Below are positions 21,920 through 23,696 of a stretch of 25,706 nucleotides of DNA, piece by piece. This DNA comes from a virus. The stretch is taken from positions 1 through 25,706 of the IMG/VR virus record IMGVR_UViG_3300027909_000059; one strand, written 5' to 3'. The translations under genes were made by a program, and so were the position numbers. How positions within the stretch are numbered: the stretch's first letter is position 1; each line of letters begins with the position of its first letter. The notes under the pieces were generated by a model that searched no databases, had not been told where the DNA came from, and worked only from the letters and a program-made list of their open reading frames with translations.

Positions 21920-22600
21920 TTAAGCTAATGTTGCGCGTAAGTTAATTACCCACAAGTCATTAGTAATTCTTGGAACTTCAGCAAATTTGTAACCAACCGA
22001 CGCGTTCAACGCTAATGGCCCATCATAAATCGGTGGTCGATAAATAAAGCTTGCTGAGTAACCGTCTTGCTCAATGCATGCGTATGCTTCCATACCAACA
22101 CAGAAAATGTTGAATACATTGGCACCATTTGAAGATGCATTAGCAGTAAAGCTACCAATAGATGAAATCAAGAATCGAAGGTTACCAATAGCACCCCATT
22201 CTGAACGCAATGCATTCATTGGCGCAGGGTATTGGTTCTTTTGAATGAATCCAGCAACGGCATCAAGATTACCAGTCAATTGTGTTGAACATAATGCAAA
22301 GTATGCATCACGAACTGGTGCTGTACCGAATTTGTCTTCACCTTCGATGTTGTCCATAATCGTGTACGCATTATTGTTTAATAAAGTACGAACGACAGCA
22401 TCCACATCAGAACGGGTAATTTCAGTCGGATTATCACCATTAACACCACCAACACTATTAATAAAACCAGCAGTTGCTGCTAACATATCACGAGTTAATT
22501 GGTCTTCGGTTTGACGAAGAGATACACCAAGACGAGCAGCACATTCATTAAGAACAGGATCTTGGTTCTGCAGTGTGCATTTAACTGTTACTTTTTTTGA
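21920..22600 (-). CDS. Major capsid protein, exon 2 (C-terminal 226 residues)
   Basis: The second part of the split capsid gene. The coding frame begins at 22600 with S-K-K-V-T-V-K-C, directly after the group I intron, and runs through TLQNQDPVLNECAARLGVSL, RQTEDQLTRDMLAATAGFIN to the stop at 21920. The NQDPVLNE...RLGVSLRQTEDxLTRDML block is a hallmark of N4-gp56-type major capsid proteins. An ORF finder would start at the internal ATG 22486, which has no ribosome binding site and would drop the conserved block. After splicing the protein is 314 residues, forming the HK97-fold shell. Confidence 0.85.
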   Translation of the reverse strand, partial: SKKVTVKCTLQNQDPVLNECAARLGVSLRQTEDQLTRDMLAATAGFINSVGGVNGDNPTEITRSDVDAVVRTLLNNNAYTIMDNIEGEDKFGTAPVRDAYFALCSTQLTGNLDAVAGFIQKNQYPAPMNALRSEWGAIGNLRFLISSIGSFTANASSNGANVFNIFCVGMEAYACIEQDGYSASFIYRPPIYDGPLALNASVGYKFAEVPRITNDLWVINLRATLA

Positions 22601-22713
22601 CCAAATATTTTCTATTTGGCGGTTGGTCTTGTTATTCCCAACTCCCCTAGTCTCCTAAGGGATCGGACTGTCGCTTCACCTCTCGGTGTCCACTCGCCTC
22701 AGTCTCTCAGCGT

Positions 22714-23258
22714 GATAATTTAATTTATTTATGGTACGCTATATCCATACATTAAAATGAAGGAAAACTATGCATGACGAATTCTCATACTTATCACAAA
22801 ATAATTCAGAGCAACAACTAATAAGAGATTTGAAAATAACAACTATGAGCTATCTTGCTGGAATTGTAGACGGAGAAGGATGCATTGGATTAGAACATCT
22901 TTCACCGACTAAAAATAGAAAGAAAGATTATTACGTATGCCGACTTACCGTAGTTAACACCAGTGAAGAACTAATGAAGTTATTAGTGTCTAGCCTCAAA
23001 GGGCAATATGATACAAGAAAAAAGATAGAAGGCAGAAAGACTTGTTATAGATGGCATGTTTTTGGTAAAGACCTAGAACAAGCTATCTTGGCCTTGTTGC
23101 CTTATTTGCGTATCAAAAAGAAACAAGCGAAATTAGTTCTCGAATATAGAAATACAGTAGCAAGCAATGGTTGGCTCATTAGTGATGATGTACTTGCGCA
23201 TAGAAAAACCATTTGGATTGAATGTAAGAAATTAAATACCATAGGTGGTTAAATTATC
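22714..23258 (-). repeat. 10-bp inverted repeat (P6a) enclosing the endonuclease gene
   Basis: GATAATTTAA at 22714-22723 and TTAAATTATC at 23249-23258 are perfect complements. On the intron RNA they form P6a, looping out the homing endonuclease gene; the right arm contains the gene's TAA stop (23250-23252). Confidence 0.8.
22770..23252 (+). CDS. LAGLIDADG homing endonuclease, antisense to its intron
   Basis: Protein of 160 residues, ATG 22770 with AAGGA five bases upstream. Residues 28-39 (YLAGIVDGEGCI) are a LAGLIDADG motif with the catalytic acid at E36. Further conserved parts are YYVCRLTVVNTSEELMKLLV, CYRWHVFGKDLEQAILALLP and YLRIKKKQAKLVLEYRNTV. A single motif and this length fit the homodimeric class, which cuts intronless alleles so that the intron is copied in. 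The gene is encoded on the strand opposite to the capsid gene and intron, so it cannot be translated from the capsid mRNA and needs a plus-strand transcript; I see no strong promoter, only AT-rich DNA upstream. Confidence 0.9.
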   Translation: MHDEFSYLSQNNSEQQLIRDLKITTMSYLAGIVDGEGCIGLEHLSPTKNRKKDYYVCRLTVVNTSEELMKLLVSSLKGQYDTRKKIEGRKTCYRWHVFGKDLEQAILALLPYLRIKKKQAKLVLEYRNTVASNGWLISDDVLAHRKTIWIECKKLNTIGG

Positions 23259-23432
23259 TTCGCCCTTGTCGCCCTCGTCTTTACGTTAGGGCTTCCAAGT
23301 CAATCAGAGCGGATTTAAAGCAGGCCATTTACTGCTAAAACCAAGAAATTTCAAAGAACAATCGTCGTTAACCTGCTCGTTCAACTGTACATAGGTCTAT
23401 AATAAGTCGAACTCATACGGCACCTACTTTTT

Positions 23433-23696
23433 ACCGTAAAAACTAATAACTGCATCAATATCTACCGCAGTAAGATTTTGGGCAGGAGGAGTAATACCAG
23501 AATTCCCTAAAGGAACCATCGCTGTGTTAAGCGGATTGTATCGACGCATACGAAGAGTTGTACCACCATTACGCGGCATATTCTTCTTCATTGCGGGGAT
23601 CTTATGGATCATATTAGGAACTGGTACTGAAAGTAGTTTGTACGAGAAACTTTGCTGCACTGGTGCAGGCAGTGTACTCGTAGTTGTGATAGCCAT
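23433..23696 (-). CDS. Major capsid protein, exon 1 (N-terminal 88 residues)
   Basis: ATG 23696 with AAGGAG upstream. The exon encodes MAITTTSTLPAPVQQSFSYK through TAVDIDAVISFYG and ends with the GGT codon at 23433-23435. Reading on into the intron adds two lysines and a stop at 23424, giving a useless 90-residue product, so the split is real unless spliced. N-terminal features such as RNGGTTLRMRRYNPLNTAMV, then PLGNSGITPPAQNLTAVDI, are typical of N4-gp56-type capsid proteins, and the reading frame continues exactly into exon 2 after removal of the predicted intron. Confidence 0.86.

Follow-up and report, generated by a model that had tools for sequence, protein, structure and literature searches.

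A group I intron and a putative core-less mini-intron in the major capsid gene of an uncultured bacterial virus

A close parallel to the locus considered here has been described in mycobacteriophage LittleE, where a probable group I intron, its splicing shown by RT-PCR, interrupts the major capsid gene and carries a LAGLIDADG-like ORF on the opposite strand (PMC3706429). Our locus lies in a stretch of 25,706 nt from an uncultured bacterial virus (IMG/VR record IMGVR_UViG_3300027909_000059, positions 1 to 25,706; ‘the window’), in which the major capsid protein (MCP) gene is on the minus strand. It shares with LittleE both the capsid-gene intron and the opposite-strand LAGLIDADG-like ORF, so that an antisense LAGLIDADG intron in a capsid gene was already known in kind. 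The two differ in that no mini-intron has been reported for LittleE (PMC3706429), and the MCP of the window belongs, as far as tested, to an unrelated family.

Small group I introns are found in the rDNA of the fungi Phialophora, Arthonia and Porpidia. They resemble the phage inserts described below in the G·U pair that marks the cut in P1, in their P10 and in a pairing between mid-intron and 3' exon, but they are 63–78 nt long, interrupt rRNA, possess a P7-like element and an omega-U, and are regarded as autonomous; the same account describes none that is coupled to a full intron (PMC3160393). The phage inserts, by contrast, are 28–48 nt long, end in G and are without P7. In engineered spliceozymes, a single group I core cuts out an internal segment distinct from itself and ligates the RNA on either side (PMC4094466); these are engineered and act in trans, whereas the phage system would be natural and apparently acts in cis. 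Two introns flanking a small exon, the arrangement of the window, are also present in the Bastillevirinae phages phiNIT1 (rNDPL) and SIOphi (TerL) and in Twort (orf142), and exon skipping in Twort and SIOphi shows that a splice site of one group I intron can be ligated to one of its neighbour; the excerpted account of these phages mentions no core-less or partner-anchored intron (PMC11878797). The open-licence literature yielded nothing on core-less phage introns or intron-encoded degrons, an absence that is weak evidence.

A 36-nt insert in the window's capsid gene is probably a non-autonomous mini group I intron, which would be excised first by the ribozyme core of its neighbour. It is likely, more broadly, that such loci form a natural system of two introns and one ribozyme, in which a core-less satellite mini-intron of 28–48 nt would be removed in cis, held to the P1 of its neighbour by a retargetable anchor, and inherited and exchanged with that neighbour as a unit.

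The capsid gene, its large intron and the antisense endonuclease

The gene was identified as that of the MCP by its match to phrog_1357 (E = 2e-28); the nearest annotated phages are ~25% identical to the window's MCP. Relatives were drawn from 573 viral-contig stretches, the best 80 of which were kept for comparison, and nearly all of these 80 are uninterrupted. The intronless relatives read SFYGTYVQLNEQVTLQNQDP; around the insertion points their sequence is SFYG-TYVQLNEQ-VTLQNQDP. In the window, the DNA for TYVQLNEQV, ACCTATGTACAGTTGAACGAGCAGGT, is located at 23396–23371 on the minus strand, between two insertions, and deletion of 23432–23397 (36 nt) and 23370–22578 (793 nt) generates a 948-nt ORF that matches the intronless locus L002 exactly over the FYGTYVQLNEQVTLQNQDPVLN block. 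The position of TYVQLNEQV and the match of the joined ORF to L002 lead us to describe the gene as three exons and two insertions (Table 1).

This differs from a sequence-only reading of the same DNA, which had proposed a single 832-nt group I intron, 23432–22601, with FYG joined to SKKVTVKCTLQ. An interruption of the minus-strand frame and a group I core are indeed present, but the extent, both splice sites and the joined frame of that intron have had to be redrawn. The 832-nt extent has in its favour a U·G P1 at 23433, a G at 22601 and an open frame; against it are the conserved TYVQLNEQV encoded within it, the family's 3' motif, GTAACA, which is located beyond 22601, and the helix formed with exon 3 (see below). 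There is next to no chance that it is correct. Position 22601 is the end of the P9.2 hairpin, and the terminal G is further downstream, at 22578. The P1 of that reading, TACGGT/GCCGTA with U·G at the cut, is genuine but belongs to the separate 36-nt insert; the P1 of the small insert had thus been joined to the core of the large intron, and the antisense homing endonuclease was absent from the finding. A separate intact capsid gene was looked for and is not present within the 25.7-kb record. The accompanying idea, that the yield of virions would be limited by how efficiently the intron is spliced, is a plausible one.

Table 1. Features of the interrupted capsid gene (coordinates of the window)
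Feature	Position	Strand	Basis
MCP exon 1, codons 1–88, ends ..FYG	23433..23696	-	Homology to intronless MCPs
P1a exon strand TACGGT, U of U·G pair at 23433	23433..23438	-	Covaries: TATGGT/GCCATA, GATTGGT/GCCAATC
Putative mini-intron, 36 nt, AAAAAGTAGGTGCCGTATGAGTTCGACTTATTATAG, two in-frame TAG, ends in G	23397..23432	-	Absent from intronless relatives; architecture common to ~95 distinct inserts
P10a guide strand GTAGGT, pairs with exon 2 ACCTAT 23396–23391	23422..23427	-	Covaries with exon in 71 inserts
P1a guide strand GCCGTA	23416..23421	-	Conserved insert architecture
Anchor strand GTTCGACT of mini-intron, pairs with 23386–23379	23405..23412	-	Pairing statistics
MCP exon 2, 26-nt micro-exon (TYVQLNEQ + GT)	23371..23396	-	Homology; anchor target AGTTGAAC 23386–23379 abuts P1b
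P1b exon strand AGCAGGT, pairs with GCCTGCT 23325–23319, U·G at cut	23371..23377	-	Sequence; conserved in relatives
Group I intron, 793 nt (splicing predicted)	22578..23370	-	P1–P9, RNA family, homology of joined exons
P1b-loop strand TCTTGGTTTT, pairs with exon 3 AGAACCAAGA 22569–22560	23337..23346	-	10–15 bp in most of 36 long-loop relatives
P3 5' strand TCCGCTC, pairs with GAGTGGA 22695–22689	23307..23313	-	Direct pairing count
P4 (GCCC/GGGC) and P5 (CGT/ACG)	23271..23292	-	Sequence, position
P6 GCG and P6a GATAATTTAA, 5' strands; 3' strands 22723–22710	23249..23263	-	Sequence
Predicted LAGLIDADG homing endonuclease gene, P6a loop, antisense; AAGGAA upstream of ATG	22770..23252	+	PF00961; I-MsoI; start context
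P7 5' strand GACTG, pairs with CAGTC 22670–22666	22700..22704	-	Direct pairing count
P8 CACC-GAGA-GGTG	22677..22688	-	Sequence
P9 22661–22645, P9.1 22642–22622, P9.2 22619–22601	22601..22661	-	Sequence
MCP exon 3	21920..22577	-	Homology to intronless MCPs

The 793-nt element has the features of a group I intron, and its splicing with GTP is predicted from them. It would be cut after the U of a U·G pair in P1 at 23371 and ends in G at 22578, as placed by homology of the joined exons. P3, P4, P5, P6, P7, P8 and P9 follow one another in canonical order on the minus strand as had been claimed, with P3 TCCGCTC/GAGTGGA and P7 GACTG/CAGTC both present. Among 57 introns of the family, the endonuclease gene having been cut out of the window copy, 50 have a fully paired P3 and 56 a fully paired P7, and compensatory changes are seen in both helices. 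Both helices were counted directly because RNAalifold, applied to the 57 cores, missed the pseudoknotted P7 while recovering P3. Support for the 3' splice site at 22578/22577 comes from the pairing of the P1b loop with exon 3, seen in most of 36 relatives with a long loop. Class A introns have a conserved TTCTTTGAAAT motif in their long P1b loops, in the window at ~23357–23347 (minus strand), beside the strand that pairs with exon 3.

A search with the J3/4–P4 motif CTRATTGACTTGGAA found at least 120 viral stretches, and among the matches listed ~110 introns of the same family could be recognized by eye. Loci L090, L104, L129 and L180 each have at least two introns of this family, at different sites in the MCP gene or its neighbourhood. 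A covariance search had been put forward as a check by the sequence-only reading: an Rfam scan of the window at two thresholds matched neither the mini-intron nor the full intron, while two of four sister loci tested, which are compact and free of the endonuclease gene, matched RF00028 (E = 1.1e-5 and 0.0035, below the gathering score). The separation of the two halves of the core by the endonuclease gene probably explains the missing match in the window.

The antisense gene encodes a protein of 160 aa, whose closest PDB structures are I-MsoI (E = 2.9e-10), I-CvuI and I-CreI. Motif and family both place it with the LAGLIDADG homing endonucleases of the I-CreI/I-MsoI type, PF00961 being matched at its cut-off (23.1 and 23.7 bits), and the enzyme is predicted to cleave the intronless site. 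PHROG labels the family ‘HNH endonuclease’ (phrog_5046), whereas Pfam and the solved structures indicate LAGLIDADG; the PHROG label looks wrong. In Stenotrophomonas phage StenR_269 (L115, 2962–4423), a relative of this protein, annotated as ‘intron homing endonuclease’, is located directly before a distant MCP relative, the start of which may have been misannotated around an intron. For annotators there would be a warning here, as phage structural genes seem to contain exons down to 26 nt and introns down to 28 nt, and Rfam detected neither of the window's two.

The 36-nt insert and its relatives

In the first comparison an insert of this kind was found in every distinct MCP with a full intron at the window's site, L139 excepted. 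A pattern scan gave 89 stretches representing 71 distinct inserts, the window's included, with ~4 chance matches expected by our own arithmetic. In a larger genome collection the same pattern gave eight chance matches and one real mini-intron (L339), on a 4.4-kb contig of a Methylococcaceae metagenome-assembled genome; being the only one among genome contigs, it is a weak hint at that host group, mis-binning being the alternative. Four further inserts have a compensated P1a, TATGGT/GCCATA, and a separate scan for the mismatched combination TACGGT..GCCATA found none. A second type, to which the already known L090 and L093 belong, comprises 20 inserts situated 5 nt away with P1a GATTGGT/GCCAATC, and in L151 P1a is UUUCGGU/GCCGAAA. 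The distinct viral inserts thus number ~95 (the 71, the further four, the second type and L151); they are related by descent, and the counts are not of independent events. Nearly all were found with patterns that fix P1a, so its invariance among them is no evidence.

The inserts have a common order: a P1 loop containing the P10 strand, the guide, 1–4 nt, the anchor, a short linker and a G. They are 28–41 nt long in the set of 71 and 36–48 nt where measured in the second type. Each of the 71 has G as its last nucleotide, and the exon always resumes at AC; when the last nucleotides were compared, only this G proved common, which is too little to show a P9.0-like contact. Every one of the 71 breaks the reading frame, 68 with an in-frame stop and the other three by shifting it, which means that an essential gene needs their removal. 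As 54 of the 71 also shift the frame, recoding of TAG was set aside as the main idea.

A ribosome might also pass the insert without its removal, by hopping over it as in T4 gene 60. The size is alike, a stem-loop is located at the take-off side and most inserts contain stop codons. The take-off codon would be GGT, yet none of the 71 inserts ends in a GGN landing codon, and the second type splits a codon (GAT TGG T/AY). Nor does bypassing explain the terminal G, the U·G pair, P10 or the anchoring to a group I intron, and we regard it as a most remote prospect. Of the marks of a group I intron the insert has three, accompanied by covariation: the U·G pair of P1 at the cut, P10, and G as its last nucleotide. 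A catalytic core of its own (P3–P8 with the G site) is lacking, the 28–41 nt being filled by P1, guide and anchor, and the insert is therefore not classed as a group I intron but only as working like one.

The pairings are maintained as the sequences change. Exon and P10 strand are ACC–GGT in 49 of the 71 inserts, ACT–AGT in nine, ACG–CGT in six and ACA–TGT in six, with one exception. The anchor pairs over 8–13 bp in most inserts, and the gap between the end of its helix and P1b of the full intron next to it is 0 ± 1 nt. Full introns are located after NEQV (46), QDPV (17), GVSL (5) or QDP (1), and the anchor target follows all four sites. In class B, 15 of 17 anchors pair better there than at any other of 34 exon positions, and in class C all five do so among 70 positions, while for class A none of 20000 permutations reached the observed pairing score. 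Taken together in gapless blocks of 59 inserts, the three helices have 96.9% of cells paired, against 34–43% when slid by 1–3 columns, and the covariation score is 0.494 against 0.106 after shuffling; P1a is invariant in this alignment, being part of the search pattern, and its covariation comes from the separate scans.

The insert and the full intron are coupled. A full intron is located immediately downstream of 70 of the 71 inserts (69 found automatically, L260 by inspection), the contig of L249 ending at that point, and one is adjacent to all 20 inserts of the second type. There are 79 intact MCPs without a full intron, and a few full introns without an insert. Loci L282 and L311 have 98% of 260 upstream nt in common but different inserts, each matching its own full intron, and L298 has 99.5% of 182 nt in common with its empty counterpart L180. 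No near-identical contig lacking the insert only was found among the loci collected, alleles such as L180 lacking both the insert and the adjacent intron. To judge from these alleles, the full intron seems to travel together with the micro-exon and the insert, and co-conversion in the course of homing is the presumed route. When 181 full introns were scanned for mini-introns preceding them in other genes or at other exon positions, convincing cases were confined to the FYG site of the MCP, the remaining candidates occurring at about the shuffle rate of 4–6.

A probable sharing of one ribozyme by two introns

The anatomy of the inserts, the covariation of their helices and their regular occurrence beside a full intron are observed; from them we infer that the mini-intron is removed at the RNA level, by group I chemistry and through use of the neighbour's core in cis. 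It retains only the recognition parts of an intron, namely a guide for both the end of exon 1 (P1a) and the beginning of exon 2 (P10), and its terminal G. In place of a core it has the anchor, which pairs with exon 2 beside the P1 of the full intron; the anchor helix could stack on P1b and so bring P1a to the neighbouring core. In the first step, that core would use P1a and the terminal G of the mini-intron, joining exons 1 and 2, and the anchor would be taken away with the excised segment. P1b could then dock and the full intron excise itself. The mini-intron is placed first in this order because departure of the full intron would strip it of the attached core.

Excision by the insert itself, as a tiny autonomous group I intron for which the anchor is only a folding aid, has a precedent in the fungal rDNA introns of 63–75 nt. 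These have P1, P10 and PM, the pairing of mid-intron with 3' exon, and one of them, the 67-nt PaSSU, splices in vitro (PMC3160393). At 28–41 nt (36–48 nt where measured in the second type), an insert that already holds P1 and the anchor could not also hold a P7 with its G site, and an autonomous intron would have no need of the full intron that is adjacent wherever this could be judged, or of an anchor ending at P1b. We consider autonomy improbable. Excision in trans by a group I core, for example that of a freed copy of the full intron, is likewise an unlikely explanation. The insert has its own guide, and engineered spliceozymes do remove internal segments in trans (PMC4094466), but the anchor targets the exon beside P1b of the same transcript and tracks four different sites, for which a core acting in trans would have no need.

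Full introns with the same guide are located at the FYG site in other phages (L317, L322, L328 and others), and the mini-intron probably arose from such a full intron through loss of the core. Such descent would also suit a decaying relic or defect, the MCP allele being dead or the insert tolerated. Purifying selection is, however, evident from identical alleles in other contigs (L082, L083 and L258), from the intact state of the flanking exons and from the covariation of three helices across ~95 inserts, which makes a relic very unlikely. A working mini-intron served by its neighbour would have wider meaning. Group I introns could then become non-autonomous and share a catalyst, with the guide parts and the core on separate excised segments linked by a retargetable anchor. 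Group II introns are thought to have gone the same way, towards a common catalyst, on the path to the spliceosome. The phage loci would offer a small, testable model for the splitting of a splicing machinery into recognition pieces and a common catalyst.

Tails read from unspliced frames

The exon frame, when read on into introns of the window's family, is usually open through J3/4 (SLIDLE). The resulting tails end in two alanines before the stop in 23 of 51 cases and in at least one alanine in 35 of 51 (e.g. L136, L117, L104, L229 and L321), SLIDLELLAA-stop being an example. The same two-alanine ending arises from different codons, stops and hairpins, which suggests that an ssrA-like degron has been selected to mark what is translated from the unspliced mRNA; ClpXP is the natural candidate protease. 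Other frames read from the same start have the two-alanine ending in 0 of 50 and 1 of 48 cases, and shuffled sequence has it in 0.4%.
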